Shown one piece after another: positions 39,988 to 60,893 of a stretch of DNA of 64,000 nt. Numbering within the stretch: the stretch's first letter is position 1; every line of letters begins with the position of its first letter. A program made the position numbers and the translations under genes. The stretch comes from Lentinus brumalis. Taxonomy: Eukaryota > Basidiomycota > Agaricomycetes > Polyporales > Polyporaceae. The stretch spans positions 124,001-188,000 of the forward strand of contig MARA01000001.1 of NCBI GenBank assembly GCA_001792895.1, given 5' to 3'. A model generated the notes under the pieces. The model was given only the letters and a program-made list of their open reading frames with translations. It searched no databases and had not been told where the DNA came from.

Positions 39988-39993
39988 CAAGGC
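39988..39993. repeat. Left target-site duplication CAAGGC
   Basis: CAAGGC lies directly outside the left TATGACG terminus. The identical hexamer lies directly outside the inverted right terminus at 60888-60893. Confidence 0.85.
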
Positions 39994-40032
39994 TATGACG
40001 AGAGTTATAGGACAATATTAAGTGACATCGTG

Positions 40033-40256
40033 TTTTGCAGTGGCTTGCAGCCGCTTGCATTCCCTTGCAGCCATTTGCCGCCATTTGCGACCGTTTGCAC
40101 CGATCTGCACTCATTTTGCAGTGCTTTGACGTCCTTTGCAGCCCTTTTGCAGATCTCCACCAGTCCAACGTCGCTCTGCGCCACCATTTGGCATTACGCA
40201 TCTCCTTTGCAGTCCTTTGCAGATACTTGCAGCCCGGTTGCAGTCATTTGCAGCCA
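40033..40256. repeat. Left subterminal TTGCAG array
   Basis: About eighteen TTTGCAG/CTTGCAG-like cores occur at 10-12-base spacing, with a gap around 40155-40200. The right end of the element has the same motif in opposite orientation. This is typical of subterminal transposase-binding repeats. Confidence 0.85.
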
Positions 40257-40833
40257 GGCACACCCCTCGACATTTTTAGACAGGAGACGCCGGGAAGCAA
40301 CGTTCAGGCGCGGGGGATGGTTTCACTCCCTCCCCAACACAGCCACCCGTACGACTTCAACCACTCCGCTCAACGAGCCACTCTCCCCGCCAAGGTTACG
40401 TGCCGCCCGCCGATCTGCGTCAAAGCTTTTCCATGACAGGCCATCGATAATGTGCCCTGGACAGGCCGATGCAAGTCCGAAGGCCTGAACGGCACCCCAA
40501 TACCGCCGCGCTAAGTCTCGTCCCCCTGCGGTTGCGCGGCTTGCCTCTCACCTCCACCTTCCGTCCGTCCCCAGTCTTCTCTCCCCGTTTTCGCGCATCC
40601 ACCCATGTCCGCAGTCATTCCTCCCATGTCCGGCATGTGTCCTCCCCGAGACGGCTGCCTCCATCATGAATGCCTCAGTGACCCTCTTGGGGCATGCGCC
40701 TATTTTGCGGTCACAGACAATCACGTCGAACGTCGGGTGCGTTATATTGTTGGCCGACCGCCACCTTTTCTACTGACGTTCTCCGGTCAGTCTGCTCTCC
40801 GTCCCGACGAAGTCTGTCACCAGTGTGGCCATA

Positions 40834-41110
40834 CTGTACCATTTCGAATTGTTCGACCAGTCACGCATAACAGGCCCCCGAATTGGTCGGAATTTGGGCG
40901 CCTGTCACGCGTCACTCAGAGGCTGGTCGAAACCACCCGGCCGGCGCTAACATATGCCGGGGGCGGCGCGCTGTCGCGCGCCCTATTTGTGGCTAATTTT
41001 GGTCGAATTTTCGCCCAATGTCACGGTCACCGGCCGGTTGGTCGAATATGTTCGACGAAATCGGCCTGTCACGGGTCACAGGGCTGGTCGAACAATTCGA
41101 AATGGTACAG
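40834..41110. mobile_element. Nested 277-bp MITE with TA target duplication
   Basis: A 27-bp perfect terminal inverted repeat runs inward from CTGTACCATTTCGAATTG at 40834 and from its complement ending at 41110. TA dinucleotides stand at 40832-40833 and 41111-41112. The interior repeats GGTCGAA/TTCGACC-like motifs and has no coding capacity. TA duplication and short inverted ends point to a Tc1/mariner (Stowaway-like) non-autonomous element. It lies inside the larger transposon, so it inserted later or was carried along. Confidence 0.9.
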
Positions 41111-41401
41111 TAACTGGATTCATCATCAGGCGAAACATTCAGAGACTGCGACTCATCCTGAGCACTGTGCTCGCGGTGGATGTCCGACCAGCGGCTGTGG
41201 TGGTTTCTTCGCGGTGCGTTTGTTCTGAGTGGTCACCTGGAACTCCATTTTTATGTGCCGTCTAGCTTGAGCATCACGCCCGGTGGGCTCCATCCACTCC
41301 TTGCGTCTGCGGCCGGGCCTTGCGTGCTCACGTCTCTGCACAATCTCCCCCCGGATCCTGGTACGTGAGTTCCACTGAACTTCCTTTCCCGCACATTGAA
41401 C

Positions 41402-44400
41402 ATGTCTCTCAGTCATACCATGAGTTCCGCGGCGCCGCCGCAATTTGCCACGACGCATCCCTCGCTCGCCACCATCCCTTCCGCTTTCCGCGCCCCTTCG
41501 ACGCTTCCCGACTCGTCCCTCCCTCCATCGTTCCCCTTAGCCCCTCCCGCCACCGCGTACTCCGCAGTGCGTGCGCACGATCAAGGGTCGACGTATGCGA
41601 TACGCAACGCTGCGGCTGAACGTCACCGCACGACGGATCCCACCTCCCGCGTCGGCGGTGCGAACGTGTCTCGTCCTCGCACGGCAGTCCTCGCGCCCCT
41701 CCCTCCAGCGGCTCCACTTCTGTCCCTTCGCCGGTTCTCCAGCTTCACACCCCCGGGGCCTCGGGCTCCTCGTCTTCGAACGCGTGTGGCCCCGGTCAAG
41801 AGACGTTCGCGGTGTGTTGCTTCCCATTTGTGGTGAGTATCCTTGTCGCGCTGTGGCCGTCTCCCGTCAATCCTCATGTTCCATTTGTTACTCGTAGCAT
41901 CCTAGCATTCAGGATCGAGGCAAATATCCGCGCACCACCATGTCGTTCACCACGGAGGAGTTCAAAAATGTCGTCAAGTCTCTCATGCATTGGGGTCTTG
42001 TATTCAAGGTACGCCTCGCCACTTCTGGCCCGGTGTTCCGTTCCCTCGGCGAGCAGGTGGTTGCGCACTTGGAATCTCTCGGCATCATCCTGCCCGGGTA
42101 CGATGCCACCAAGCCCTGGGAGACCCCGCAGGATCTACCCTTCGTGCTGCTCGCCGGGCAGCAGAAAGACATGTTCACGAAGGTTCACACACCGTACGAT
42201 TCGTTCAACGGCGTGCAGTTCACATACAAGGCTCTCACTGGAGCAAGGCCGCCGCTGACCCGCATCGCGTGCCCCGTCGGCGACGAGCTCATGCCACTAA
42301 AACTTTTGCGCATCAGTATGTCTTTCATTCCTTGGCTCCATGACGCTCAGGTGACTGAACCCCATCTCCTAGCGCCTCGCTTCGGCGACTTGCAGGGCCC
42401 GCTAGACAACCATACAGCGTATCTGGCGGGCGCCCCGGGCATCGACGACTTCCTTACCATTCCCCACCGCGAGCGCCCTCATCCTTGCTTTCCTCGTCGT
42501 CTGCTCGCCTCGATTCTTCGGGATCGCTTGACTGCTGCCTGTTTACGCACCTGCCCTCGTGCCACACCTCCGCCCTCCCCTTCCTCCACCTCTCCTCCGG
42601 GGTCACCGGTGGCCACGTCAGCCCCAATTCCGGTGCCGGCTCCACGTCTTTCCTTGACGGCTCTTTTGGAAGCCGAGGGCAGTCCTTCCCCGCCGGAGAA
42701 TCCCTTCGAGGAATGGTTGCCTAGTCGTCGCGCACCAGCAGATGTTCCACCCCTCTTCCTTCCCGAGCCCTTGGATCATCAGGATGTCGCTCCGTCTTCT
42801 GGCCCGTCGGATACACCCATCGATTCAGCCGACACCACGGCAAACGAGGACTCTGCGACCGCTTCGTCTTCGGCCTCGAGAGTGAGTGTGCATCCCTGTT
42901 CGAGACTCACGCAACCTTACTGATGACTCGGACATATGCTTGCAGGGCCGTCGTCGTCGTCGGACGACGGCTAGGATGACAGCGTACGTACGGCCGCCTG
43001 GCGCGTCGCGGCGGTCTTCGCGCTTGCGGGCGGAATCGAGTCACAGAGGACAGGCAGACGACAGTGATGACCCTGTACTGGCATCGGCTCCCGTTGAGCC
43101 TGTTCCAGCTCCGTCCTCTGTGGAACCTGACCCTCCCAGCTGCGGTCAACGTCGCACTCACGCTGAAGCGGCGTCTCCTGAGGTGCGCCCAATCGCCTAG
43201 CTATGTAAAAAGTCTCACGGCGACCGTGTCCCTTGACAGACATTGGCTGCATTACCGCCATCGAACAGGCGACGCACGGAGGCGAGTGCTCAAGCGCATT
43301 CCACGTCCGCCAGGAGCTCTTCCCGCCTGACTGAGGTATGTTTGCGCCTGTCGTTCTCTTGCATCATGCATCGTGTTGATGTATCTCGATCCCTGCAGGA
43401 TGTCTCTGTCCTCCGAGCACCCTTGCGTCCGATGCAAAAATTCGAGCTGACGGGGTGGTCCGATCGCGCCATCGCCGCGCTGCCTCCCCCGTCTCCGCCC
43501 GATGACGATGCCATCTTCCGTCCGTGCATTCGCGGCAACGACGTGAAGGAGGCTGCGAACATCTTAATCTTCCAAGTCCAGTGGCTGTTCAATCATGCAC
43601 CTGGAGGGGTGATTACTCGTCAACTACGCACGGCATTCCAGGCCGAGCTCAGGCAGCAGTTCCCGGGGTCGGGTGTAGTGTGCCATCTCGTACCACTATC
43701 TGAGCTGCTACGCCACGCCCGTCATCTCGATGTCGAAGTGTGAGTTGCGGTCGTTATTATTGGTACATCCCATTAACGTAGTCACCGACTGTTGTCGGCC
43801 TGTCATCCAGGTCGTTCGCCATCGGGGATAGCCCTATTCGTGCCGTCATGCGCGCGTGCGTGAAAACCCTCGTCGAGCAGGAGCAGTTTTGGCAGCCTCG
43901 GGGGCGCTTTCAGGTCCCTAGGTGGCGGTTGAAGCGCGGCCCGCGTGCTGATCGTGACACCGCGTTGCGAACCGCTGGGTTCATCTCGCTGCTTCATTTG
44001 CTGAACCTCGACTGCGGCCCCGATCCTGTCTCGCCCGTCCTGCTGCTCAACATCATCCTCGAGCGTGCTTGGTTCTCCCCTATCGATATCGCGTTCCTGG
44101 CCCACATCGATCCAGGATTGCTCGAGGTCCTGCGGCCTTGGATCGACTTCGACCCCTCCATGCCTCTACCGCGAAACACCAATGATCCTTTGTACGGGCT
44201 TCTTGTCGGAGCCGATATAGACGTACGTACGTTCATCACCCGATTCGTCATTCTGGTACTTATATGTTCCGTGCGCGCTCGTTAGCCTGCGCCTTACGGT
44301 GCCGGCCCGCTCGCCGCGCAAGACCTCGCTGAGGTCGAAGAGACCATTGTGTCCCATACTACCATGGGCGCCGCCTCGTTGCTGGACGAACTCGACTTGA

Positions 44401-45252
44401 CTGCGTTCTCGGATGGCTTCTTCGCAGGGTACGCCGACCACGGTGCTCTTCGTCAGGTACGTCGTTTCGCCATATCAGCCGTGGGATGCCACGCTTATGG
44501 TTCTTGGCAGACGTTCCGTGGGCGGGAACGTGACATCATCGCGGGGATGTGCAACCAGAGGTTAGACAGCGTCGATGAACTTCTCGCCCATATCGCCATT
44601 AATAGCGGGATCAACCACCACGACGTCGATCTCACCTTCCTTTCGTCTGACGACGAGAAGGACAGGGGAGGCAAGGGTAAGAAACGCGAGCTTCCCGACG
44701 CTGTCTGGGACACGACGAATGAGACTGATTTCGATTTGGCTTTCCGCCATTACCTTTCGGAGCCGGGCCATCCTGATGTCCCCGTCATCCAGGAGATGGT
44801 CGGTGAGGAGGCTTTCGTGAGGGATGCCGCGGACCCTTTGCTGCGCGCTCGTTTGTTCTTGGCCTTCCTGTCGGGCAGCGACCTGAAACCAATCGATCCC
44901 AATTGGAACATCAAGGTTCGTTGACGCATGCTCTCCATCTCGCGCATCGCGTGGCACGTCGCTGATATTTACTCGCACAGATGTCCTTCGTCCACACCGG
45001 CGATCGGGAGTATGAACCGGCGCCGGGCGAGCATTTAATCCCTGCCCCGGTGCGTAATCCTCACTTCACTCTCTGATGCTTTCCTGTTCTCATGCAGCTT
45101 CACAGATTGATGTACACGCCTGTTTCTACGACTGCACGGTCACGATTGATGAGGGTGTGCGTAACTTGTTGTCGCAGGGGTACCCTTGGCTCTCCTTCCA
45201 GGCTTGGTTTCACGGTGGACTCCTAAACGCCGATGATTTCAATCAGGTGTAG
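41402..45252 (+). CDS. Transposon-borne large protein with HECT-E3-like C-terminus
   Basis: A chain of about a dozen exons with matching gt..ag junctions runs from a Ser/Pro/Thr-rich N-terminus (about 41402-41830) through a folded block (MSFTTEEFKNVVKSLMHWG, 41940; PWETPQDLPFVLLAGQQKD, about 42116). A disordered acidic/basic linker follows (42590-43340), then a helical region (LRPMQKFELTGWSDRAIAA, FQVQWLFNHAPGG, GFISLLHLLNLDCGPDPVSP). The end resembles the HECT catalytic domain: FRGRERDIIAGM.....VDELLAHI, LLRARLFLAFLSGSDLKPID, and, after two introns, IDVHACFYDCTVTIDEGVRN. There VHACF corresponds to the AHTCF active-site Cys motif. HECT ligases pass ubiquitin through that Cys to substrates. 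Only the C-terminal third resembles HECT, so ligase activity is inference. The exon 5' of 41830 is the least certain; the stop is at 45250-45252. Confidence 0.72.
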
Positions 45253-45432
45253 CTATTGATCGTGTTTGAGTTTGTACATGGACGACTTCGAGGGACTTGC
45301 AGCACCGTGTGACCAAAGAAATATATCATTTTATGGCTTGGCGTACAGCGTGCATATCTCATAGCGCGATTTCGCGGGACTTTATACCTCTGGTGCATTT
45401 GCGATAATCACCTCGCAGTTCGGTGACGACAA

Positions 45433-46348
45433 TGTCTACTAACGTACCTAAGACTCCGCCCGAGCTCCGCCACCCGTGGTGTGACAGTGGACGTCCCATT
45501 CGACGTGCTACCTTCTTGCCGCTTGTTCACAAGTTCCACCCTCCTTGCCAACTTCATGACATTTCCGTCGCAATCTCTCGAGAACTCGCTGCGAATTCTA
45601 TACCACGACGTGAGCGCTGCGGCCCTTCTGCCCGCTGGTACAAGGTGTACTGATGACCTGCTGTCATACGTAACTCACATCCAGCTGCGATCGGTGGTCC
45701 AACAGGTTGCGGAGTTCGCGACAGTTATGGGGGGTGAGTGTCAGCACTCGAGCCACGCTAGCGGAGTGCATGGCATGTCACTGACGATCGTCCAGATGAG
45801 CCAGATCCCTTCGAGTACACCGCCTGCGCCGAGTTTCGTGACCGTGTGTTTGGTCAGTGTGGGCTGCGACTCCTCCGGATGGGATGCGGTTACTGATCGC
45901 ACGCGTGCTCGCAGCGGCCATGCGTGAGATCCGGATGGAACTGCATTTTCGCCGGGAGGTTGGGGTGCATTCGTACTCCGTGCTGGAAGAAACCTTCGGG
46001 GACGACATGGTTTCTGAGGCGCCGCCAAGTGAATACGATCGCCTCAGCTCAGATGCACACACCGAGGACCACCCCGCGGCCGCCCCGTCACCTCCTCCCC
46101 CTTGGGAAGATTATGATCCGCACGATCATGACGGTTTCGACAGATCCTGGCTCCCTTTAGGTCGACAATTCGACAACGCGGATGACGACGACTGGTGGTG
46201 GCCCCCGCCGGGCCTCTTGGCCTTGGAGCGAGAGATGATGTTGGCGCAGGGAACGGATGAGGATCGGATTCAGGCGGAGGTTGACGAGTACTTGGAGGAT
46301 CTGGAGGAGTCGCTGCCCCCCGGCGTGACGGTGCGCATGTTGACCTAG
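45433..46348 (+). CDS. Unrecognised acidic protein of the transposon
   Basis: Reading continues from about 45486 (VPFDVLPSCRLFTSSTLLANF) to an intron after VMGG (about 45731). A small exon DEPDPFEYTACAEFRDRVF follows (about 45796-45855), then after another intron AAMREIRMELHFRREVGVHSY to the stop at 46348. The C-terminal half is very acidic with a Trp cluster (DDDDWWWPPPGLLALEREMM) and a Glu-rich helix. The first exon and start are not settled: the ATG at 45433 needs an additional intron to reach this frame. I do not recognise a family. Confidence 0.45.
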
Positions 46349-46681
46349 GTGAATACGAGCGCCGAGAGTGGCCGGACGAGGCGAGGTCACTGTCCCCGCC
46401 GGACGAGAGATGTAGTAACCATTAACTCGATGTGCTTCTTGCGGTACGGCTGACCCAAAGTGGGGAAGCATCTGCCGCAATGAAACAGGCCCGGCTCGTT
46501 TCGGCTAGCCGTGGTTATTTTGTGTGGCTAGTGCGAAGGGGTTCCGATTCGCAAGAATGCCCTGTTAATCGTGTTTGTTACCGGGTGCCGGGGGGGGCTG
46601 GCCAGCGCCAAATGCACTCACGGCTTCACCGTGATCGTGCACTTGCTCACTCCAATCCCGCCTCCTTGCCCCCTGTACATC

Positions 46682-47523
46682 ATGCCCGGACTAGTCATGC
46701 CGCCGCTCGTCAGCTCGTGGGGAGAGCCATTTTCGTCGGAGCCGTGGGATCTGCCCATCGCGACAGTTCGGGGCGACGGAGTCCTACGCGTGGTGGATAG
46801 CGTCAAAGTCGAAAAGGTCAACCGCATGGAAAGGCTGGGACTGCAGCTGGACGTACCATGTCATGAGGGGGCTATCCCGGGACAGAACGGTGCTTCGACG
46901 GTACGGCATCCGCTGCACTCAAATATCACGCCAGACTTCGCCTGACCGAGTGTTTTGCAGATCCCATTTCCTCCTCGCCGGGACGCGGCGAAGTACTGGA
47001 GAGAATATCGGCCGTTCGACATAGACCTCAAACAGCTTCGAGAAGAACACGAGGAGGCATTCGTGGCTCTTCACAGTGTCCTGTCATATTTCGGGTCGCG
47101 GCATCCCCCTTGGGATGAAGTTATCATTGATCGGCAATGGCATACGTTCACTATCGCCGTGTGGGCCATCATCGAGGACCCCGCGGAAACAGAGGACAGC
47201 AGGGCCATAGCTATCGCACGGTGGGCCCGAGACAACATGCCGGTGAGATGGCGGGCTCCTGTGCAGCGTCCGGGCCAAAAGCTGACTAAGTTCCCTCACA
47301 GGATGAGGTTTTTGATCATCCATGGTGGCACGGTCGATGGAACTGGTATCCCCCGTCACCTCGGGAGATCGAGTGTGTGGACGAGGAAGATGGGTCGGAG
47401 TTCGAGTTTGGGGAAGGGTTAGACGGCCTGCCGGTCCCCGACGGGATGTTCCTCCCCAGTCGGTGGTCGGCGTGGGCCGCAGACGGGGTCGGGCCAGTGA
47501 CGGACAACCGGCAGTTCTCCTAG
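46682..47523 (+). CDS. Unrecognised Trp/Asp-rich protein of the transposon
   Basis: Exons 46682-46900, 46961-47242 and 47302-47523 give 240 residues with phase 0 at both junctions. Visible stretches are LVSSWGEPFSSEPWDLPI, RRDAAKYWREYRPFDIDLKQ, HTFTIAVWAIIEDPAE, ARWARDNMP, then DEVFDHPWWHGRWNWYPPSP and an acidic end with LPSRWSAWAAD. Trp content is unusually high. No family is recognised. The regular three-exon structure and even phases make it a convincing gene. It belongs to the plus-strand set of the element's left half. Confidence 0.62.
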
Positions 47524-48035
47524 CGGCGACGTTTCTTCATCCATGTCCCGATGCCTGGTCCGCGTTTTGGAGTGATTATGAAAGGGTTGTCCGTCGTTCG
47601 CCCAAGGCCTCCCGGCTTTTGGACAATGCGCCGCTTCTCCTGCTCGACCCCCGTAACAGACTGCTTGACACGAGCCGTTAGATGAACACGGCGCGTGCTT
47701 CAATCAAGAGGGTGCATGCGACGAAGGCGATTGATAATTAGCAAACGCCACTTACTATGATGAGTGTCATGACGTGGTCATTCTCTTGTCGCATGTTGAC
47801 GGGGTTAGAGCGCAAAGCCACTTGACATTGGCGACTTCGAATAGACATCGCTGTCTCGTTCATACAACTATCACTACTACACGACCGCGCTAATACTGGC
47901 GTCATATCGTACGGGCAGGTATATCACTCACAATCGTGGTGGGCAATGTCTCGATGCCGCCGGAGTTGGCCATGCGTCTGTCCGGGACGTAGTGATCAGC
48001 GGGCACATTTGTAACACCTGAACGACTACTCCATC
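47524..48035. other. No supported gene
   Basis: About 500 bp inside the transposon before the tandem-repeat frame. It is AT-richer than its neighbours, with no gene seen. Confidence 0.4.
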
Positions 48036-48866
48036 GTGGCACCTCCGGTCTTGTCACAGCGACACTGCCCAGCGGACTACATAGCCCGAACCCGGAGCAT
48101 CACCAAGGTGCGTTGGAACAACGCGAGCCTCGGGACGGAGCCGGGACCGCGAGACTCGTCGCTGGAACAGCGCGCGAGTCAGCAGTGGGCAGTAGACTTC
48201 GCAGCCCAACCCCGGAGCATCACCAAGGTGCGTTGGAACAACGCGAGCCTCGGGACGGAGCCGGGACCGCGAGACTCGTCACTGGAACAGCGCGCGAGTC
48301 AGCAGTGGGCAGTAGACTTCGCAGCCCAACCCCGGAGCATCACCAAGGTGCGTTGGAACAACGCGAGCCTCGGGACGGAGCCGGGACCGCGAGACTCGTC
48401 GCTGGAACAGCGCGCGAGTCAGCAGTGGGCAGTAGACTTCGCAGCCCAACCCCGGAGCATCACCAAGGTGCGTTGGAACAACGCGAGCCTCGGGACGGAG
48501 CCGGGACCGCAAGACTCGTCGCTGGAACAGCGCGCGAGTCAGCAGTGGGCAGTGGACTTCGCAGCCCAACCCCGGGGCATCACCAAGGTGCGTTGGAACA
48601 ACGCGAGCCTCGGGACGGAGCCGGGACCGCGAGACTCGTCGCTGGAACAGCGCGCGAGTCAGCAGTGGGCAGTAGACTTCACAACCCAACCCCGGGGCAT
48701 CACCAAGGGTGCGTTGGAACAACGCGAGCCTCGGGACGGAGCCGGGACCGCGAGACTCGTCGCTGGAACAGCGCGCGAGTCGGCAGTGGCGGGTGACCAC
48801 CTCAACGTCACCACCCAGCAAGGAGAGGGAGGTGCGCATACAAAGTATCTCCATGATGATAATTGA
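48036..48866 (+). CDS. Possible protein made of 40-residue tandem repeats
   Basis: A 276-codon frame beginning at an ATG contains five full copies of a 40-residue unit (beginning RSITKVRWNNASLGTEPGP and ending QQWAVDFAAQP). A sixth copy follows in which an inserted G near 48707 shifts the frame. The 120-bp period is divisible by three, so all frames stay open through the repeat. A second plus frame and a minus frame are equally long. Coding status is therefore unproven: the open frame is a consequence of the repeat. No known repeat domain is recognised. Confidence 0.35.
   Translation: MAPPVLSQRHCPADYIARTRSITKVRWNNASLGTEPGPRDSSLEQRASQQWAVDFAAQPRSITKVRWNNASLGTEPGPRDSSLEQRASQQWAVDFAAQPRSITKVRWNNASLGTEPGPRDSSLEQRASQQWAVDFAAQPRSITKVRWNNASLGTEPGPQDSSLEQRASQQWAVDFAAQPRGITKVRWNNASLGTEPGPRDSSLEQRASQQWAVDFTTQPRGITKGALEQREPRDGAGTARLVAGTARESAVAGDHLNVTTQQGEGGAHTKYLHDDN
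48091..48805. repeat. Six-unit 120-bp tandem repeat
   Basis: Unit starts are at 48091, 48211, 48331, 48451, 48571 and 48691. The units are nearly identical: differences are single substitutions such as GGAGC to GGGGC in the last two, plus one extra G in the sixth. The near identity indicates recent expansion. Confidence 0.97.
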
Positions 48867-49376
48867 ACACTCACGATTCAGTTCTCCTTGTCACCGCCCA
48901 TCCTGAGCCCCATATGTCCGTCGCCCCAGCGAGGTCTCGGCTTCTCCGTGCCCGTGCTTGGAAACTTGGCAATATGCGGACGCGAGATGTTGGGGCTGGT
49001 CACCGAGTCAGACGCCGTTGGCACCACTATGTTGGAGTGGTGCAGCGAACGTACATGCTGTTAGATCGGGAAGGGTTGACGCGAAGCGATCGTTCCAAGT
49101 TGAGCAGTTAGGAGCAAGATTGTAGGAGGAAGTAGGAAGGGAGGGTGTCTAGTCTGACAAGACAACAATGGCCGTGCAGACGCCCGAACCTGCTTACATA
49201 ATCTCGGCGAACAGTGGTCATTGTCCTGTCCTTGCTTGCACACCCCACATCCACCGTCGTCTTCCACCCCGCCCTCAAGGCCTCATCACCTGTGGCTGGC
49301 CTGTCTTCCTACTCTCGCAGGTAACCTAGCTTATATACGCAGGCTACCAGCACTTACTTACATACGCGCCACAGCA

Positions 49377-50987
49377 ATGCCCGTTCAACGTCGAGGGCAC
49401 GGCTCTCAACATCTCGGTCCTCCGCCGGACGGTCCTGGTGGTGATCTTGGCCCCTCACCCCACCGCGTCCAAACCCGCTCTCAAGTGACAGCAGCGCGCA
49501 CCGTTCGCGCACCTCAGACTCGGTCCCGAACAGCGTTGGGACAGTCGGCCGTGAAGTCCGCGGTGAGTGGCTCATCTGCGCCTGCCCACCTTCTCATTCC
49601 CCATGCTCTCTCCCAACAAGGTGGCCGCTCCTGTCACTGTCGGCGGCGATTCTAACCGGGTGCAGTCGGCTTCCGCGGATGTGGGGAGGCTCCGGGCGCA
49701 TCTGGATATGGAGGTTGACATGGATCAGATGAGCGATTTGTCGGACAACGAGTGAGTGCCGCACATATCTCACGTCACCGCGGTGGTTCACCCCTCGCAA
49801 TCCATGATATGTTTTACCAGAGGGGCTGCTACATGGATTCGCCGCTCAAAGAATGCGAAACGAGCCTCCGTGGTGAAGGGCGCCGGTCGGCTGGCCAAAG
49901 CTCACGCGCGTGCCGCGCAAACCCGGTCATCCACCAGTACGTACATTGTGTGTCTGCCCGCCCCTCGCACCCGACCGCTGATTCACGTCGTAGCCCAAAT
50001 GAAGGCATTTTCACTGAGCATAGCGGTTAAGGCGCCCCATGGGCGACCGTCCGCTGTTGAAGAGGTGGAGCCTGCCGGATCTCAGACGGTGTTTGCAGGA
50101 GATAGACCTCGCCGTTTGACCAGCGTGGATGGGTATGATCTATTGTATCACCTGCCGGGAGGTTTGAACGGGAGAAATCTGGTGCGTACAACATATCTTG
50201 TTCGTCTGCAACTACGCCACCTGATCTGTTACCGCGAAGGAGGAACTCTTCGAAGCCGCTCGCCAATGGGGTAGGGCTTGCAAACCCTCTCAGGCGGTAT
50301 CCAACGATAAGAAGGGCGGGTACAAGCAGGTGGGCGAGTTGGTAGGTACGACGCGCATCGTCCTCGCCTGGCAGGCCATCGGACATCCGGTGAGCGCATC
50401 GCCTATGTCTGGCTATTCTTCGACTGAATTGCATGCGGCGGCTCTAGCATGAAGAGCCGGGTGTGTGCGCGGACGTCCGCCGCAACTCCTCCACGTTCAA
50501 AGGGGCATGTGAGCTCCTGGAGAAGCTCGACGTGGTCAACTCGTACGTCATGAAGCTTCTGGCCGCCATCGACCCCGACCAGTATCGGTCAATGGAGAAG
50601 CTCTACCACTGGCGACTCGAACGCTATGCTAGTTCCCGTGCGCTGGCCGGCCTCGCTGAGCCGCAGCTCTTCTTTGAGGGACGGGAGATCCAGTTCAACC
50701 GTTTCTCGCGGGCACATTGGGACAACCAGGACCCGCATTGGGCATGGGCTATCATTATCTACTTTGGAACCTTCGGGAGTTGCCGCCTGAAGTTCAAACA
50801 GCTCCGGGCTGAGGTCGTCCTGCGACCCGGGGACGTCATTGCGATCCGCGGTCAGGATCTTCTTCATGAGGCTGAGGACTGGGACTTCGGGGAGCGGCAT
50901 CTCCTTGTTCACTTCACGCACCGTGCTTTGTGGCGCCAGGCCAACATCAAGTGCGAGACGAGCGCGGCAGCACCGTTCAGCGACTAG
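49377..50987 (+). CDS. TET/JBP-like 2-oxoglutarate/Fe(II) dioxygenase
   Basis: Fungal TET/JBP proteins oxidise methylated bases in nucleic acid, and in basidiomycetes they are known to be carried by DNA transposons. The gene starts at 49377 with a basic disordered N-terminus. It then has exons near 49618-49752, 49822-49937, 50029-50180, about 50237 to 50391 (with VGELVGTTRIVLAWQAIGHP) and about 50450-50987. The last exon gives ADVRRNSSTFKGACELLEKL, ASRALAGL, FEGREIQFNRFSRAHWDNQD, LRPGDVIAIRGQDLLHEAED and ERHLLVHFTHRALW. In these, H.D (HWD) and the distal His (LLHEAE) fit the iron triad, and the Arg of GERHLLVHF fits the 2-oxoglutarate contact. The core is intact, so catalysis is plausible. 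Its target base and its role in the element's life are unknown. Internal exon edges are approximate. Confidence 0.8.
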
Positions 50988-51276
50988 GGGAAGAGGGCGG
51001 GCATCCGTGCTGTAGTACTTTCCTTGTATGATACCATTTGGGCCGCTTCTACGCCGCATGTACGTTATGCAATTGCTGTTATATATGATCACCGAGGGTG
51101 GCGAAGAACAGCGCGGAACTATTCAAGACCATAGTGGACGATAGCGTCTTACTGCCTGTCAAAGCCAGGCGCGGGAGCTGGCAAAGGCACCGCTCCGAAT
51201 ATAAGACACCGCGCGAGCGCGCAGCGTCTTACTCCTGAGCGTCGACCACCTCCCTCCCAACCTGCGACTTTCTACC

Positions 51277-52073
51277 ATGGCTCACGCGCGACAGTCTGGT
51301 GACACCGGCGCAGACGACTCCAAGCGGCGCAAGGCGCGCCCTGTCAAGAACAGTACGCTCACGAAGAGACAGAAGCTACTACGTCAGGCGCGCAACCGCC
51401 GATACTATCAACGGCGCAAGATGTGAGTCCCTTGTGGTCTTCCCCGCATGTTACATGCTTTCCGTGGCTGATGAATGACATCAGGCGCAACGGCGCTGCT
51501 CTGAGCGAACATGCCGGACATCGAGGCCTACAGCAGCAAGTACGAACATCGCACGCCGGTGACGCTACGCAGCCTCAGAATAACCGCATGACGGGGCACC
51601 CGAAGGACAGCAATGACAAGGTGGCACATGGAGGGACAGGGAAGCGAAGGGGAGGGAATGCGGGCCTTAGTCTCAACGACACACCGTGGTGAGTTCTGCC
51701 GCCTCCGTGTTTGAACGAGGACCGACGCCCACCCGACAGTCCAGGACCAGTGGGCATCGCGCATGGCAGCTCCGTCGGCAACATGGCGCACATTGACACG
51801 CTCAACCAGGAGTTGCTGTCCTGGGGCTACATGGACGATCGAGTCAAATATTGCCGTGCCCTCGACAAAAACCTCGCTCGCGCCCTCCGGGCTTCACCTG
51901 TCACGCGGGCAGCTTGGATTGCCGACATGGAGGAATGGCTAGCAGACGGGGACGACTTCGCCGAGGAACTGTGTGCGATCGCCGAGCGCGGAGTGAGTCC
52001 GACTATCCTATCCGTCATCTTCACTGTACAGTATATGATCGCCGCCGTCGAGGCCCAGCTTGAAATGTTGTGA
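51277..52073 (+). CDS. Small protein with a highly basic N-terminal segment
   Basis: Exons 51277-51422, 51485-51688 and 51740-52073 give 227 residues with all phases matching. The N-terminus is strongly basic (KRRKARPVKN, TKRQKLLRQARNRRYYQRRK), resembling the basic region of small fungal DNA-binding proteins. The centre is polar and Gly/Gln-rich. The C-terminal 110 residues look helical (HIDTLNQELLSWGYMDDRVK, RAAWIADMEEWLADGDDF, FTVQYMIAAVEAQLEML). A nuclear, DNA-binding role is inference from charge only. I do not recognise a family. Confidence 0.55.
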
Positions 52074-52157
52074 TCTACGATGTAATGCGACATCGGTGAA
52101 TCGGATGGACATTGCGTGCAAGTACAGGGTGACATACGAGCAGGGGAGAGGTGTACT

Positions 52158-54371
52158 CTAAACAATGGCGTCGTAAAAATCAGGAGACACGGGGAGATTC
52201 AACTTTTTCACCAACTCATAACGCGTCATAATCGTATCTGCCCACCCCACAAATGTCGCGCATGGTTCCCAGAGGGCGTCGTGAATTCCGGCAGGGTGTG
52301 GTTCTGGAGGGGTAACTCGGCGATTCGGCAACGGGGTTGGACCAAATAACGCCTTCATGGCTTCGAACGCCCGATGTTCCACTGAGAGCAATCGCTTGCG
52401 CGTGGTGGATTCTTCCCAGATGTCTTTGTTCTGACCTAGCCAAGTGTAGACGGCTTGGACCTTGTCCATGCGCGAGCGAACTGACTGATAGGTACTGGGA
52501 CGCATGCCTAAGGTGACCATGACGTCGTCAGGGTGGATGTGAATTTCCTGCCCTCGAACCTCCACCGTGATGAAATCGCGTTCGGTCTTCGAGGTCCCGA
52601 TGCCCAAGTCTGCAAGGGCACCTCCAATGCCGCGCAGGCGTAGAACATCGCGATATGCCACACCATACGGTGACGGCGTGGCACTGAGCTCGCGGGCCCG
52701 GGTGACCCGCCGAGGAAAGCGGCTACAGATGTACTCGACGATGAGTGGGTCTACGTAAGGCAAGGGCTTGGGACGGGCGGGTTTGCCTCTTCTGGGAGGC
52801 GGTTCGTCGTCCTCTTCTTCCACGGGAGGCACAGGAGATGTGTGATGGTCCAGATCTAAGGCGGAGGGGGAGTTGAAGCATGACAGTAGACCGGCACCAC
52901 TAACAGAAATAATCACCTAGCTCACTGACTGAATCGCCGTCGGACATCGATAGAGGCGGCGAGTGGGCCGGCGGCGGCGACGCACGAGATACTGGCAGAA
53001 CCGGAGACGTACGAGTACTAGTGCCCGATTGTACGCTCGACGGTGCGACGGGAGGAGGGCGGGAGGGCGCCGTAGGAGCGGCTGCAATATCAGGGAGGCT
53101 CGCAGTGCGTGCGCTGTTAACCTGTGTTCTGAACTGCGAGTGCATGTGTGAGTATCGCGCATAATGATATGGGTCTGGGCTGGCGGCGAACTTACCTGTC
53201 TTCGGATGGCGCGATGGTGGATGAGGGCGAGATCAGGCGGGACAGGCTGAAAGGCCGGACGCCGTGACTGCACGTACGCCCGCATGTTCTGCACCAGCGT
53301 AGCGGGATCTGCATGACCTAACGGCATCTCCACCCGTACCCTGGGCAGCCATGAGCCCACGAACATGCCTGACTGACAGTGCACTAAGCTCACCGAGATG
53401 CTCCTTCAGACGTTGCTGGCCGTATGGCAGAGATCAAAGAGGTTGAAGGGGGAGGGGCCGGCCGCGCCGTACTCTGGCGGAGACATGTTGACTATAAGAC
53501 TATGAAGTGCGAGACACAAATGGCGGGATCTTACGACCATGGGGAAGTCGACGTCCATATGGGCGGAGATATTGGGACTGCGGCAGGGACGTCCACCATC
53601 CTCAGCCGTGCCACTCCGGTCTGATACTGCCAAGCGAATGCAGGTGGGCATGCGCAAAACGGGCTTGTGTGAATGTGAGACGTACCATGAGGGGGATAGG
53701 GCTCGCCGTCTGACCTGCCTGTGCCCGTAACATCCCGGCCCTGTTCAGCAGAGTCGCCTTGTGGAGTAGCCTCTGAGGGAGCGAGGCAGGTGTTCAATTG
53801 AAGCGCGGTGCCGAAAGTGTCCTCGGTGTCACGGTGGTGTGCCACGCTCACCCCTGGTGAGCTGTTCTGCTCTGGGGTGTGCGCGCCCAAATGCGCCCTG
53901 GAGGCTTTGGGGACGTTGTATGTCAGTGAACGCAAATGGTATCGGGATTCGTCTCACCTCTGGGACTAGCCTCACATGCAGACGCGATAGCGGCGCTGGG
54001 CGGGTCGCGCCGAGAGGTGGGGTCTTGCCTGTCTGGAGGCTCTGAATCGGCTGATTATAAGAATTTGAGCACCAAGTACAACACGACAGACGATGGGTAC
54101 GCACAATCGCCCTTGACGGAGACATTGCGACGACGTCGGCGGCGACACGTCGCGGGGCCGGAGGAGTGGCCTCGCGCACCCTTTCCCTCGTCTCGTTCCT
54201 ACGTTGGTACCTCCGAGCGCGAGAAGTCAGAAGGGTGCTTGGGTCATTCGCGGCTGGTTCATATGTATCAGCAACTACTGCGGGATTGAATGGGCCGCGT
54301 GGAGTAGGCGGGAGCGCATGCACGGTGCGATCTGCCTCAGGCTCACCTGGCTCGTCTTGCGCGTCGTCCAT
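52158..54371 (-). CDS. Unrecognised multi-exon protein of the transposon
   Basis: The minus-strand chain starts MDDAQDEPGEPEADRTVHAL at 54371. It continues through a basic Arg-rich stretch (RARRYQRRNETRERVRE), smaller exons near 53400-53930, GSWLPRVRVEMPLGHADP (about 53370-53320), a Pro/Ser-rich segment ending SDGDSVSEL (about 52922), and after a roughly 60-nt intron DLDHHTSPVPPVEEEDDE. The last exon reads VDPLIVEYICSRFPRRVTR, IHIHPDDVMVTLGMRPSTYQ and ends PVSPDFYDAIV at 52158. The final 200 residues look globular and the front half disordered. No family is recognised. Exon limits in 53400-54300 are tentative. Confidence 0.5.
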
Positions 54372-54733
54372 CGCCAGACGAGGAGATTATCTCAGCGATA
54401 GTAGTAGGATAAACAAGAGTCACAGTCGAGAGCGCAGTGAGGCACGACGTGGTAAGAGGAGCGTCTTATTCTTGCCACAGGCGCTGAGACGCAATGTCAC
54501 TTGTTACTGATATGACTTACTTACAGTAGCGTCGTCAGTTCTTATAAATCTGTAATCCTGTTCTCCATGTGCGACGCCTGCGCAAGGCGCCACGGCATCC
54601 TTGACTTAACCCTGTCGCGCGGTAGGATGCAGCACACAATGTTACATTGACGTAAGACGTAGGTACGAGGCGTACTGCCGAAGGCCTGACATGCCGTAAT
54701 ATCACTGCGCCAGATCACGATGGGGGTTGGGAA

Positions 54734-54747
54734 CCCCCCCCCCCCCC
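54734..54747. repeat. Run of 14 C
   Basis: An uninterrupted C14 tract lies between the two minus-strand genes of the transposon. Its length is likely to be unreliable in any assembly. Confidence 0.9.
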
Positions 54748-54895
54748 TCGCCCTACCTCCGCCATCACGCGGACTGCGTCAAATTGTGGTTATCACACAT
54801 GGTCACCGGCGGCCTGCTGCGTACACCCACAGCGCAGAAGCTACTATCGAGCACATGCACTACATGAACACACCCGGGCGTCGGTGAGAACGGCT

Positions 54896-55917
54896 TCACG
54901 CCCCCAAGGACGCGAAATCTTGGGGCACCGAGGACACCCCTCTCCACCGCACGATCCTGCGCGCCATGTATGGATGGTTCCTTTGAGGTCTGCGTGTGTG
55001 CGTGAGTATGCCGACTATGCCAACTTGGAGAACCACGGGAAGGACATACGGTGGAGCTGATGCGCAACTCATTGGCGCGTATTCATGGCCGTCCGGTCTG
55101 CGTGATGGCCGCAGACGACGACGAACGTGCGGGGGCCGACGGGGAGGGGACCCAGGCCGATGCGCCCTCGAGAGTGTGCCCACTGAGAGGTCGGTTGATG
55201 CGTCTGACGACGTATCAGATCCATGTGAAAGCGCGCGGCGACGACGCTTGCGTGCAGATGGGTCATCGGTGGGCGGGGAATGCAGTCCACCGAGTGGCAT
55301 ATGGGCGGCATAGACATCTATTTTGCCCAGAGCATTGACGGCAGCCTTAAGATGGAACACACTGACGCGAAGAAAGTAACAACTCACCAGCTGGACGCGT
55401 CCGCGCGATGAGCTCGCGTGCCAAGTCCTTGACATCACGCAACTCCTCTTCAAGCCCTGCCAGCCGTTGCTCCAGCCCTCCGAAGTGTGTAACCACCCTC
55501 AATTCCATCGCCTGCCAGAGCGCGTCGAGATGTGCGGTCAAGCGTACGCTCTGCTCACCGCTGGCGACGATCTGATCGATGGCGACTACACGGTCACCCA
55601 TCTGTCGGGACTGGTCAAGTAGGTGGCGAGTGTGCTCGAGCACCAAAGACAGTGACCCTTCCACACTGCGGATGAGTTGCGGCACATCGAAGTCGTGCGG
55701 AGTTGCAGCCGCCCCTGGAACAGGTGAGCATGCACCAGGGCAACGTGGAAGTGTACTGACCAGTTCGGTAGGAGCAAGCCAGGCGCTGCGCGTTGCAGCG
55801 CACGCATCCAATCGTCCGTCGGTTCTGCGAGCACCCCTCCGCCACCCCGGCTTGTGCACACTGCACGCATGGAGCCTTGCGTCTAGGCGGAGTAGACGTG
55901 GCACGGTCGTCAACCAC
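54896..55917 (-). CDS. Cys-rich motif plus coiled coil, putative DNA-binding regulator
   Basis: From an ATG at 55917 the first exon gives a compact Cys motif, PCVQC...EGC......GCVRC......CSY, like the zinc-finger-like motifs common in basidiomycete transposon and regulator proteins. After an intron (gtcagt donor, acceptor near 55718) follows a helical region: RSVEGSLSLVLEHTRHLLDQ, then HLDALWQAMELRVVTHFGGL and EQRLAGLEEELRDVKDLARE, a clear coiled coil. After about 55390 the reading is ambiguous. One frame runs through RKRRRR and a Ser/Arg-rich tail to 54896. The phase-correct one stops near 55263. Zinc binding and DNA binding are inference. Confidence 0.5.
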
Positions 55918-56577
55918 ATCGAATGGCGTGGTGTCGACAGACTGCTCGCGTCGTCTCTTGATGCCTGCAGCGGAGGAACCCGTTACACACTGGCGGTCTT
56001 CGGGGGGTAGGGGTCGTAGCTGGAGTTTGCGCTGATACGCCAGGTGTCGTGTGCGGGTCGGAGGGCGAAGGGTGCAGAAGAAGGTGCCCGTTCAGGAGGA
56101 CTGAGACAACCGGGGACCGCTGTCGGACAATCATATGTGGACATTGTCGTAGAGAAGGGGCAGAGAGTGAGACTCGGGACGGAGAGGAGGTAATACGCCT
56201 TGCCAAGTGTGTAGCTTAGTCATCATTTGTAACAACAAATGATCAATAATCTCTTATAGCGCGATTTCAATATGTGGCGGTCCTCGCCCGCGACATTGGT
56301 CAGTCTTTACTGGTCGACCGACCTGCACACTGCGCCGTCTGGAAACGATTGACATCGGTCAGTACTACGTCGCGCTATGTATGAGTTCACACCCTCTTGC
56401 TGACAATTGAGTAGAGACCCCCTCTCCGTGCACAATCTGGGTGGCTACTGCGACGGCCGCATCTCGTGCTGCGAATCCGGAAAGGTGAGAGCGAGACTCA
56501 AAGCAGACACTCGGAGTGCGACTGACGCGGCGATATGCCCGCACCCAGTTACTACAGTTTCACCGACGACAGACTGA
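55918..56577. other. No supported gene
   Basis: About 660 bp between divergent genes of the element, presumably promoter sequence for both. It includes an AT-rich patch near 56215-56265. No gene is seen. Confidence 0.4.
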
Positions 56578-57085
56578 ATGCCTGAAGTCATGAACGGTCA
56601 ACTGGTTCTCTCGGCCGGCGCCCCGGTCTCCTGGATTTACACGGTGTATATCTGGTCGGAGGTAAGCTTTATTACCCACATGGTGTTCGACGCGTTATGA
56701 CATGTAGCTGTAATGTTTGCTTCAGAGTGGACAGCATCCACATGTAGCGTACATCGACGTTGCGCCCGGACAGACGCATGTACGGCTAGAGGACGAGGCG
56801 GCGTTCATGGCTATATGGCGGCGTGTCGGTATGTGGGGCTATGAAGTATGGGTCGCCGAACACGACAGGTGGGTGCGGGGATATCACGCGCTGCCGGTGA
56901 CAGCGTGCCTGTATCGCAAACCGTTCATACTCGTCCGAGTTGATGAGGTGGAGATATGCCCTGGGATGGAGGGGATAATGGCGGAGGCGATAGGATGTTT
57001 GTCGCGCGAGATACCGAAGGCTGTCGAAACCGCACCGGCACCAACACTCGACTGGGATGACGAGGAGACCGACGAGGGGGAATAG
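56578..57085 (+). CDS. Unrecognised small acidic-tailed protein of the transposon
   Basis: Exons 56578-56661 and 56726-57085 encode 147 residues in phase 0. The protein reads GQLVLSAGAPVSWIYTVYIW, a beta-like domain (HPHVAYIDVAPGQTHVRLED, FMAIWRRVGMWGYEVWVAEH) and VTACLYRKPFILVRVDEVEI, then an acidic tail DWDDEETDEGE. No family is recognised. It is the only plus-strand gene among minus-strand neighbours and converges on the second HECT-like gene. Confidence 0.55.
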
Positions 57086-57237
57086 GCGGGCTACGTGAGC
57101 AAGGAAGGCCGCGGCAGGCGGCAGTGTACCTTGTTGTAGAACGAATATGGCCGGATACAAGTGGGAGGAGCGGTCGCCGAGGCAAATGTGTGATTCGTAG
57201 CTGCTGGCGTACAAGACATAATACACGACAACAACAT

Positions 57238-58003
57238 TCACATGTAGTCGTAGTACTCCTCCATGTCCATGACGGCCGAATGAAGCCAGACCTGGAACAT
57301 ATGGTACGGGGCACCCTCGTTCAATAAATTGCGCACGCATTCGTTGATGGTGATGGTGCAGTGTGCGAAACAAGCGTGCATCTCGATCTGCACACCAAAG
57401 GTCAGGTCAACGAATGCACCAATGGCGTACAGGAACTGAAATCTCACAGGCGGAGGCAATGGCAGCAAACTGGAGCAGTCGAGAGCGAGAGGTTCTCTAG
57501 AGCCGCAATGGGAGAAAAAAACCTGCACATGCCGTGCGGACGGAGAGGATAGTACGCAGTCAGGACGGGGGGATTGAGCCTCAGTGAGAGCAAGGACATA
57601 CCACTGGAACCCGCGGGGAATGCCCATCGCGCTGAATGACCTCGTCGCCAGTGACGGAGCGCAGAAAGAGGCGAGAACGGAGCAGCGGGTCGGGACGCTC
57701 GCTTGCGAATCGGGTGTCGCCCACGAACGCCCGGATGGTGGGGTTCTCTGGATGTCCGCTGCCACGCAGGTACATCTTGATGGCCTCTTGGGCTTCGGAC
57801 TCGAAGAACACATCGATCTCGTGCTCGGGGACGAAGATGTCGGACACTGGCTGGATAGGAACCACGGCGGGGCTTGCATGCGACACCCCGCTGCGAAATT
57901 CGATATGATTGATGATGTCTTCAACCTGTTGCCCGGGATCGATAGCCAGATTTTGGACACTGTTAGTGAGGTGTTGAACGTCCTGGACAGGGTCGGTAGC
58001 CAT
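57238..58003 (-). CDS. Short HECT-E3-like C-terminal protein, second copy
   Basis: From MATDPVQDVQHLTNSVQNLA (58003) the first exon contains VEDIINHIEFRSGVSHASP, then EIDVFFESEAQEAIKMYLRG, then FVGDTRFASERPDPLLRSRL followed by FLRSVTGDEV. These align with LAHIAINSGI, FDLAFRHYLSEPGHPD and DPLLRARLFLAFLSGSD of the larger gene at 41402-45252. After introns the end reads IEMHACFAHCTITINECVRN to a stop at 57238, matching IDVHACFYDCTVTIDEGVRN and keeping the presumptive active-site Cys in HACF. The protein lacks the long N-terminal region of the other copy, so it is either an independent small gene or a 5'-truncated remnant. The middle exon (about 57560-57400) is not firmly delimited. Confidence 0.62.
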
Positions 58004-58259
58004 CTTGTTTCGGAGCAACGACGTCTTCGATAGTGGGAGGAGCTTACTGAGTCCGTCGCAAGCGCTCTCGCCGTGACGAGCGCTCTCGGGCAAATTCCCT
58101 CTCGGCCTGCCGTCGGGAACTACCTTCGGGGCATGTACATACATAGATGAGAAGTTCATATAACCCCGGAGTACTGCGCACGAGCTGGTAGGAGATGGGT
58201 AGAGCGCGCGAAAACATGTAGTCAAATATTCATACTCTGTGACGTACATAGGACTCGTA

Positions 58260-60062
58260 CTACGTAAACCAAGGGTGGCAGAAAGCCAGGGCGGATCGCC
58301 ACAGCTCGCGCCGAACCAGCATATCACGCGACGACAGATCAAAGTGGTGACTGAGGTGTAGATTGAGCATGGCTACTACGTCGAGTGAGAGCGGACAGCG
58401 CGGCGGGTCGCAAGTCACCTCCGACAGGCGGCATGGGACTCCCGCGACAACGGCCTCCGTGTCCACGCCCTCCTGGTTGTGTTCGCGATGGTGGCGCATA
58501 AGTACGGGGTCGTTCGCGGCGTCCCAGTCCACCCGTAGTGGACGATGTCGTCGACTTGTTCCTCGACAGCAACTGGAGCGGCGGGAGGGGCGACATGAGA
58601 GAGTCCGCGGGCGCCATGCTCGGCGACTCCGAACATGAACAGTTCGTGCGGAGTGGCGGCGGGCTCGCCTTTGACGTGGAGGGTGTGCGCGTTCCAGATG
58701 TCAGCCCATTCTTGGGCGTCTTGATTGATGGCGTGCAGGAACAGATGATGCACAAGCCAGATGTGGCGAGGATCGTCGGCGTCCAAGTCATCGTTATGTT
58801 CCAACTCCAGGAAGAAAATCTTCCATTTGCCACCGAAGCCCACGGTGACGTCGAACCAGAGACGTTCGATGCGCGTGTTGTGCACGCTCCTGAGGTGAGA
58901 TGGTGAGTTACGGTGTCACCGTGACCAACATGACAGACGCGTACCTGCCCCAAATGTAGGAACCACGGTTCCGCCCTCTTGTGGTCTCCATCCAACCTGC
59001 GACGGCAAGGTTTTCTGTGCCGTGATCCCCGCGCACTCGACTTGGCAAACCGTGCCGACTGACGGCGACCTGGAAAAGCTCCAAGACGGTCTGCGCTCGG
59101 TTGTTGGTGTGAACGCGAATGCCGGTAACGAAACGGGAGAAGCCGTCGACAAAGCAATGAATGACGAACTTCCATCGTATCAAACCTGCTCGTGGTGGTG
59201 AGGGACTGCCAGAAGACAGAGATACGCACACAAGACGTACCGTGTTGACCATCATGGTGGACGAGGGCGAGTGGACCTGCAACCTTGTACTTTTTGCGGA
59301 TGATACGATGCCGAGCGAAATCGGGAGGCGCGCCGCGAATGCGCACGCACGCCATGCGGACGCGAGCCTCGGGTACACGATGTCCCCTGGAACGGAGCGC
59401 ACCGACGAGCATGACATGGCCAAAGCGGGGGAACGAGGACAGAATGTCCGTGAGCAGCATGTCTAGCTGTTCATCGGTAAGCGTGGAGACGGGGGCGGTT
59501 TGCGTTGTGTGAACACGAGACGTGGTCCCGTCGGGGTTGTCCACGACACGGAATACGGGCGGGGCGGGCTCGACGAGTCCGTGACGAAGAGCCTCGCGGC
59601 GGACATGGCGAGCGGAGCACTTGAGCACCTTCGCCACGCGAGCGGGACCTCGAATTCTGAGGGCTTCGGCGAGAAACGTGGGGTCGATCGGTTTCGCAGG
59701 GCGTCCTCATTGGCCAGTGTGAATGGTTTCGATGATGGGCAGGTGAGGCTCGTCAGGTGGATCCCTCAACTTGTGCCGCGCGTCGTCGAGGTCTTCAATC
59801 ATCTTCTCAAGGCTCGTGCGGAGGGTATGAAGCTCCCCTGCAGCAACAACATGACGGTGCTGAGGTGGAATCAGTCAAAGCAACATGTACCGTGACCAAT
59901 ACGACGCACCTGCTGAACTGCCGCAAGGAGGGAGGTAGCGAGAGTCCTCACCTGCGCGAGACGCGGCGCGTCGCCGACGTAGGCGCGAAGAGCAATGTTT
60001 ACCTGGTCGAATATGTGCCAATACGATGCTCGAATGTTGTTCAGTTGCGTCGCGGGGTCCAT
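58260..60062 (-). CDS. rve-type integrase/transposase, interrupted
   Basis: This is the presumed transposase. Exons run from [20 protein letters not shown] (60062) across an intron ending near 59833. Then come [20 protein letters not shown] and IETIHTGQ, a TGA (59707-59709) in the same frame, [20 protein letters not shown], a helix-turn-helix-like [20 protein letters not shown], and [20 protein letters not shown]. The catalytic core follows: VHHDGQHG (first Asp), [33 protein letters not shown] (second Asp) and, after a third intron, [11 protein letters not shown] (Glu), completing D,D,E. Near 58532-58534 one base is missing in a GGG run, after which the conserved tail [27 protein letters not shown] and [13 protein letters not shown] continues one frame over to 58260. 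The TGA equals CGA with one C-to-T change. Active-site residues are all present despite the two breaks. Confidence 0.88.
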
Positions 60063-60483
60063 GACTAGCGAGCGGCCTTGGGGCGGGTGGAGGAGACGCT
60101 GGTGTACACAGGGATGAGGCGCGGGCCGGCACGCGAAAAGCGAAAACGCGGGAGGGTGTGTGGACAGGCGTAAAACTGGAGAAGGGGGAGGACGGGCTGG
60201 AAGGAGGTCCTCCTGGTGAACAGCGAGGAAGGAGTTTCTGAGCTGAGTGTGCAGGGTGTATGTGCGAAGGCCGGTATGGGCGCATCGGCGCAGGCAAGGA
60301 AGGGGGATGGGCCAGGAGGTCGGCGGTCGGCCGAAGGAGCCATCGATGGGCGCAGGGTTTTGGGAACCTGTGGGGGATCCTACATCAGCGGCGTCACTGC
60401 CAAGCCCCAGTGGCGGATAGCGGGGTCGTCAAGAGATTCCGAGAGAAAGCAAACTTGCGTGGTTGGACTTGAGTGTGGCAGAC
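60063..60483. other. No supported gene
   Basis: About 420 bp between the integrase start and the right subterminal array, presumably the integrase promoter. Overlapping frames have no motif. Confidence 0.4.
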
Positions 60484-60846
60484 GCCCGGCCTCGCACCGT
60501 GAGCGTGGTTGCTGCAAAGGTCTGCATATGTCTGCAAAGATGAGCCAATGAGTGGTACTCTCTGCAAAGGTAGAAAGACTAGAAAAACGCCACGTACTGG
60601 GAACGATTGATGGTCCGGTCTGCAAACCTCTGCAACGTAGCTGCAAAGCCGCATCGAATGACTGCAAAGATGGTTGAAGTCTATTTTTGGCGCTCGCAGG
60701 GCGCCAAAAAGACGAATCTCCTTGTTGACTGCAAAGCACTGCAAACCGTTGCAAATGGCCGCAAACCATTGCAAGTGGCTGCAAAACGGGGCTAACTACT
60801 GCAAATCACTGCAAGGGTGTGCAAACCACTGCAAACGGCTGCATTC
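60484..60846. repeat. Right subterminal CTGCAA array
   Basis: About twenty CTGCAAA-type units occur, denser toward the outer end (60728-60846) with 10-12-base spacing. This is the inverse of the left array at 40033-40256. Confidence 0.88.
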
Positions 60847-60887
60847 GGGAGGTGAGACACTATTATTGTCCAGGAAATCGCGTCATA

Positions 60888-60893
60888 CAAGGC
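60888..60893. repeat. Right target-site duplication CAAGGC
   Basis: The hexamer directly follows the inverted terminus CGTCATA (60881-60887) and equals the left flank hexamer at 39988-39993. Confidence 0.85.

Follow-up and report, generated by a model that had tools for sequence, protein, structure and literature searches.

Does the 20.9-kb insertion in a stretch of the Lentinus brumalis genome stand alone, as a transposon that picked up host genes, or does it belong to a family with a gene set of its own? The stretch, called the window below, comprises 64,000 nt (G000:C1:124001-188000) of a 53.4-Mb assembly in 136 contigs; bare coordinates are window positions. A preliminary description had proposed a complete giant DNA transposon with a 6-bp CAAGGC duplication, inverted TATGACG termini, a second block shared by both ends, inverted TTGCAG arrays and an integrase-like (rve) transposase. 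It had regarded HECT and TET/JBP genes as cargo, had set the element apart from Polintons and could not place it in a superfamily. Our analysis indicates that the insertion very probably belongs to a family of IS3EU-type DNA transposons of giant size (about 21–30 kb) with an old core gene set.

The element proper spans positions 39994–60887 (20,894 bp) and is bounded by two copies of CAAGGC, confirming the complete element with its 6-bp duplication. Its termini read TATGACG..CGTCATA, and the second shared block, also correctly described, is GGACAATA at both ends. Within the first 350 bp TTGCAG occurs 11 times and CTGCAA not at all; in the last 450 bp the counts are 0 and 13, respectively. At both ends the TTGC motifs lie almost exclusively in a single orientation, mostly spaced by 10, 20 or 30 bp, and are inverted between the ends. 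TTGC pairs at 9–11 bp were more numerous than in all 500 dinucleotide shuffles at eight of the ten ends of five full copies, the exceptions being both ends of the C44 copy: the left one equals the shuffle maximum, and the right one, which holds an inserted palindrome, has zero TTGC pairs. Motif counts and shuffles thus agree with the arrays as first described. With a 10-bp phase the motifs would face the same side of the DNA helix, a layout that would suit an array of protein-binding sites.

The same ends recur throughout the genome. The end pattern TATGACGMGNNTTNNNGGANAATA (at most 2 mismatches) was found at 20 places compared to 0 for a reversed control, and a looser pattern at 96 places compared to 18 in the control. 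Ten insertions, named here by contig, have paired ends (Table 1), and all ten show TATGACG..CGTCATA or a variant starting TATGA. Nine of them are flanked by exactly 6 identical bases, different in every case (CAAGGC, CCCTGG, GGCGAG, AGGCTC, GTTATC, GACAAC, CAATGG, GGGCAC, CCTCGA); at the C104 insertion the flanking identity extends over 7 bp (ACTTACC). One insertion was pieced together from contigs C87 and C101, which we infer to be its two parts from their common GACAAC and near-identity to the C93 copy. The preliminary description had made its reading depend on both ends recurring at other loci, and had suggested a search for full copies with other 6-bp duplications and the same gene set; the genome holds both. 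Full copies range from 20.9 to 30.0 kb, and among those examined nested transposons and tandem repeats account at least in part for the length differences. Eleven further ends are unpaired (C13:187642, C46, C82:463350, C53, C22, C83, C35, C68, C72, C76 and C49:34801); those on C22 and C83 have an identical flank, and a right end for the C82:463350 copy was not found in the locus sequence examined.

Movement was traced by comparing copies and by searching the genome with seven joined insertion flanks. Three stretches of 2201, 848 and 1525 bp were compared between the C93 and C87/C101 copies, and each contains a single mismatch. These near-identical copies differ in their duplications and flanks, which is most simply read as a recent move. 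The C66 insertion is of the C44 type with an internal deletion; it shares 98.7% identity with that type over 1.5 kb and is flanked by a duplication of its own. Paralogous empty sites were found for the C13 and C126 insertions, and none was found for the insertion in the window, whose empty site the preliminary description had proposed to look for. At C35:11556-11746 the C13 flanks align without gaps over 186 bp (146 identical) with a single CCCTGG. For the C126 insertion, two paralogs on the C126 contig are identical at 133 of 186 positions (16 gap columns), and a third, partial match lies on the same contig.

The five full copies share a nearly constant plan, with A0, H1, B and TET on the plus strand and then, on the minus strand, D, E, H2 and rve. 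What had been taken for cargo is thus a conserved core gene set. For 15 of the 17 rve loci (rve identity at least 46%), the contig also has a TET match no more than 28 kb away; five of these 15 (C45, C49, C95, C109 and C110) have near-equal rve scores and are non-independent. These five loci (on C49 at 3155 kb) lie within about 10–17 kb of a contig end and may have spread along with subtelomeres. Across the 20 of 30 comparisons retained, the ratio of nonsynonymous to synonymous divergence (dN/dS) was 0.03–0.10 for TET, 0.06–0.12 for D and 0.05–0.10 for rve, ratios that are rough since dS was high (1.4–4.2); the other 10 comparisons were saturated in dS and set aside, and the window's broken rve was included. 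TET, D and rve are under purifying selection. The AlphaFold model of D is mostly helical with a mean pLDDT of 64. All gene models are approximate; the predictor can bypass stops with false introns. It did so for the broken rve of the window, whose model was used for no claim; the openness of rve in the other copies is backed by separate translated matches.

The transposase of the C13 copy matches the Pfam family rva_4 (PF24764) with an E-value of 6.7e-59 and rve with 1.9e-5, the latter below its cut-off, in agreement with the integrase-like enzyme first proposed. The catalytic triad was recognised, with the E in RIERLW and 34 residues separating the second D from this E when a mis-spliced stretch is omitted. 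An HHCC pattern is absent from all four transposase N-terminal regions examined, that of C93 being incomplete, and PDB sequences gave no match to rve at E ≤ 0.1. Long open models were obtained for C13, C44 and C126. The window transposase is broken by an in-frame TGA (59707–59709) and a frameshift near 58532, so this copy is defective in transposase and would need a helper copy. At the TGA position the other copies encode Arg or Lys (CGG, AAG, AGA, CGA); the stop could have arisen from CGA by a C-to-T CpG transition, and an origin from AGA is possible as well. In C93 the first exon is interrupted by a 4.8-kb insertion. This nested insertion has TAGGGACC.. termini, by which we take it to be hAT-like, and is missing from the otherwise near-identical C101 copy. 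Relatives of the rve protein occur in several Agaricomycete orders among the 120 relatives listed; the named protein relatives listed belong to Agaricomycetes, and the closest of them to Polyporales, among them Ganoderma, Trametes, Lentinus and Cerioporus. A tree was built of 37 transposases, 5 from the genome and 32 chosen from the 120. In it, a partial protein of Lentinus brumalis, P0016, is nested in the clade formed by the genome's copies, as the neighbour of C13. This makes it probable that the copies are old lineages, with transfer between species as the alternative. The transposase may recognise the TATGACG termini together with the adjoining helically phased TTGC arrays, and would insert the element at target cuts with a 6-bp stagger, giving rise to the 6-bp duplications.

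The TET/JBP gene proposed earlier could also be recognised, even though the match of its catalytic exon to PF12851 is remote (E 6.1e-7, below the curated cut-off). A profile of the five TET copies matches Naegleria Tet (4lt5) with an E-value of 0.0056 and CcTet (7vpn) with 0.47. The HxD...H iron ligands align with those of Naegleria Tet and the 2-oxoglutarate arginine is present; AHWD (H-x-D), LHE and GERH are invariant in the five copies, whose catalytic exons share 74–85% amino acid identity. TET/JBP genes have been proposed to help transposons escape methylation, a proposal made without experimental proof in the available text (Kojima 2025, PMC12730594). Given the enzyme family and such published proposals, the protein most likely oxidises methylcytosine on the element's own DNA and so would relieve silencing.

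H1 and H2 are paralogs (hhalign probability 99.9%), and the motif ACF near the C-terminus of H1 is invariant in five aligned sequences. The HECT label attached to these genes found no support in sequence-profile tests. PF00632 has 15 matches genome-wide and none in the element copies even at E ≤ 10, the gene models so labelled have no Pfam HECT match, a search of PDB sequences was likewise unsupportive, and hhalign against three host HECT domains returned probabilities of 0.2% and 1.3%. By eye, RLFL..SGSDL.P followed about 40 residues on by HACF recalls the HECT C-lobe, a short resemblance within noise, as 17 of 60 column shuffles score as well. HECT and ubiquitin are also absent from the main text of PMC12730594. 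Of the 30 genome matches to H1/H2, every one is located either within a paired copy or on the inner side of a lone recognised end, several H1 loci resting on single ends from the loose pattern with its 18 control places against 96; the distance between the H1 matches and a left end is 4 to 12.5 kb. A single H1 homolog was found by a search that scored the 7,995 candidates sharing most words, which gives no measure of rarity. Matched only in these elements, H1 would most likely be a second factor for transposition or anti-silencing, a role that we suggest tentatively.

The element left unplaced by the preliminary description fits the IS3EU/GingerRoot group, for which TA..TA ends, 6-bp duplications and the lack of an HHCC finger are given in the available part of PMC10045372. 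It shows each general IS3EU feature tested, namely TA..TA termini, 6-bp duplications (9 of 10 copies), an rve-type DDE core and no HHCC. GingerRoot mostly has TA..TA ends as well; the window's family would differ from this group in being giant and multi-gene. TET-positive IS3EU elements are reported, in the text available to us, only from Pucciniales and Tuber indicum, all with an alpha-kinase gene; the rust families end TAYGG..CCRTA and have TET between the transposase and alpha-kinase genes (PMC12730594). They share with our element the 6-bp duplications, the TA..TA termini and a transposase and TET/JBP gene in one element, whereas the window family ends in TATGACG, has H1/H2, D, B and A0, and has none of the 8 genome matches to the alpha-kinase (PF02816) in its copies. 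A new superfamily, resembling IS3EU through convergent ends and a common DDE fold, would account for the giant size, the unknown gene set, the lack of alpha-kinase matches and the subterminal repeats, which go without mention in the available part of PMC12730594. We nevertheless regard it as unlikely given the IS3EU features listed above, and since other TET elements with several genes are placed in IS3EU by Kojima (PMC12730594). Of the TET-positive groups reported from Agaricomycotina (Kyakuja, Zisupton, EnSpm, Plavaka and Helitron2), Kyakuja, Zisupton and Plavaka likewise put a TET/JBP gene on a mushroom DNA transposon, but they belong to different transposase superfamilies, Kyakuja with 7-bp duplications and CA..TG ends without terminal inverted repeats, PlavakaB with 2–3-bp duplications (according to the available part of PMC12730594). 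IS3EU has been annotated in Ganoderma leucocontextum, with no mention of TET in the accessible text (PMC8955403).

If instead a small integrase transposon had captured host genes as true cargo, the variable length of full copies and the reported passage of TET/JBP genes between transposon superfamilies (PMC12730594, as far as available) would be readily understood. Such an origin is improbable considering that the gene plan is nearly constant in five deeply diverged copies, with three genes under purifying selection, and that H1 is matched in element copies only; moreover, among 10 open reading frames (ORFs) from the variable regions of four other copies, convincing Pfam matches were limited to a long terminal repeat (LTR) retrotransposon nested in C126. 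Hardly credible, finally, is descent from a Polinton/Maverick that degenerated, or from a large DNA virus that became integrated, with loss of the replication and capsid genes. An rve integrase, 6-bp duplications, a size of about 20 kb and several unknown genes are what one would find in either, but no Pfam match to polymerase B, ATPase, protease or capsid was obtained in the selected window ORFs (of 104) and gene models, as the earlier exclusion of Polintons had anticipated; the other copies hold the same non-Polinton gene set, with TA..TA termini, a short terminal inverted repeat and no HHCC finger.

The IS3EU-type family with an old core therefore remains our reading, and TET/JBP, H1/H2, D, B and A0 would constitute that core, all of them recurring among copies and TET and D, like rve, being under selection. 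Several observations weigh against it. Besides the high dS, the remote PF12851 match, the single-end H1 loci, the two damaged transposases and the missing empty site already mentioned, the C126 empty-site alignments are gapped beside the junction (one gap adjoining it), and other modes of movement would fit as well as the presumed cut-and-paste. The plan varies in that E is unmatched in C93, C44 carries the E–H2 block in inverted orientation, and C126 and C44 are the only other copies with a match to a block F, inverted in both. Two rve loci, the C66 deletion form and C82:296480, have no TET nearby, and the genome search found no H1 match for the subtelomeric rve group and C53. The observed/expected CpG ratio is 1.0–1.07 in six copies and 1.03–1.05 in flanks, which is uninformative on methylation-driven decay.

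Table 1. Features of the element in the window and insertions with paired ends in the genome.
Feature	Position	Strand	Length	Remarks
Left target-site duplication	39988..39993	.		CAAGGC
Left terminal inverted repeat	39994..40017	+		TATGACGAGAGTTATAGGACAATA; resembles the ends of other copies
Left subterminal array	40030..40262	+		TTGC motifs, single orientation, spaced mostly by 10 bp; approximate limits
Nested palindromic insert, like a miniature inverted-repeat transposable element	40832..41112	.	281 bp	29-bp perfect arms; left part of element
Gene A0	41402..42558	+		Conserved block 41898-42554 in four other full copies; no Pfam match; model approximate
Gene H1	43366..45252	+	about 530-560 amino acids	Model approximate
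Gene B	46697..47523	+	about 240 amino acids	Kept in five full copies; model approximate
Tandem repeat	48083..48789	.	120 bp x 5.9	Between B and TET
TET/JBP-type 2-oxoglutarate/iron dioxygenase gene	49603..50987	+		Catalytic exon 50448-50987
Gene D	52158..53327	-		61-69% identity over 195 amino acids among five full copies
Gene E	55347..55989	-		Small cysteine-rich protein, zinc-cluster-like by eye; in 3 of 4 other full copies
Gene H2	57238..58003	-		Paralog of the C-terminal part of H1
rve/rva_4 DDE transposase gene	58260..60062	-		Broken in the window copy
Right subterminal array	60516..60850	-		TTGC motif inverted relative to left; limits approximate
Right terminal inverted repeat	60864..60887	-		TATGACGCGATTTCCTGGACAATA (minus-strand reading)
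Right target-site duplication	60888..60893	.		CAAGGC
Paired insertion	C1 (window)		20.9 kb	
Paired insertion	C13		25.7 kb	
Paired insertion	C44		24.2 kb	
Paired insertion	C66		2.1 kb	
Paired insertion	C93		29.4 kb	
Paired insertion	C126		30.0 kb	
Paired insertion	C87 + C101			Pieced from two contigs
Paired insertion	C55		21.8 kb	
Paired insertion	C82:295345-315929		20.6 kb	
Paired insertion	C104		21.2 kb	

Nested inserts and repeats were observed in several copies. An insert whose terminal sequence resembles, by eye, that of the 281-bp palindrome was seen within the C44 copy's right end, and in the C13 copy repeated stretches likewise lie between B and TET. The LTR retrotransposon in C126 (L061 4706-9307), with gag, reverse transcriptase and RNase H and weak rve and chromo matches, is the cause of part of that copy's extra length. 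Genes that look similar by eye and have no Pfam match flank the window insertion on either side (38293-39093 and 61316-62118). A high-copy short element with TATGAGGGGCGCCAGCGGACAA ends was found with the looser end pattern as 14 plus/minus end pairs 1.7–2.9 kb apart; 6-bp duplications flank the copy at C88:134520-136760, which has no stop-to-stop ORF of more than 172 codons, and all ten further pairs checked. These short elements are probably non-autonomous relatives.

A search of the literature for a prior description returned no giant element with this gene set, most subscription papers and all bioRxiv preprints lying beyond its coverage. Starship elements of Ascomycota are likewise giant multi-gene fungal transposons, with a tyrosine recombinase in place of the DDE integrase-like transposase found here. 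It is conceivable, if somewhat doubtful, that the present elements form a separate Agaricomycete lineage in which the transposase and a fixed module (H1/H2, D, B, A0 and TET/JBP) act together with the phased arrays as a mobility and anti-silencing machine; such a lineage would parallel the Starships, with a DDE enzyme and a DNA demethylation function of its own. The family would extend TET-positive IS3EU, described from rusts and a truffle in the available part of PMC12730594, to Agaricomycetes, and here the combination of TET and IS3EU comes within a conserved set of several genes whose copies show signs of recent movement. Of these genes, H1, D, B and A0 emerge as new candidate factors for transposition or anti-silencing. 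One genome offers near-identical copies inserted at distinct targets, a deletion derivative and no fewer than 14 short elements with paired, similar ends, which makes the idea that transposons carry TET/JBP to escape methylation directly testable. The gene set suggests a mobile element equipped to escape the DNA silencing of its host.

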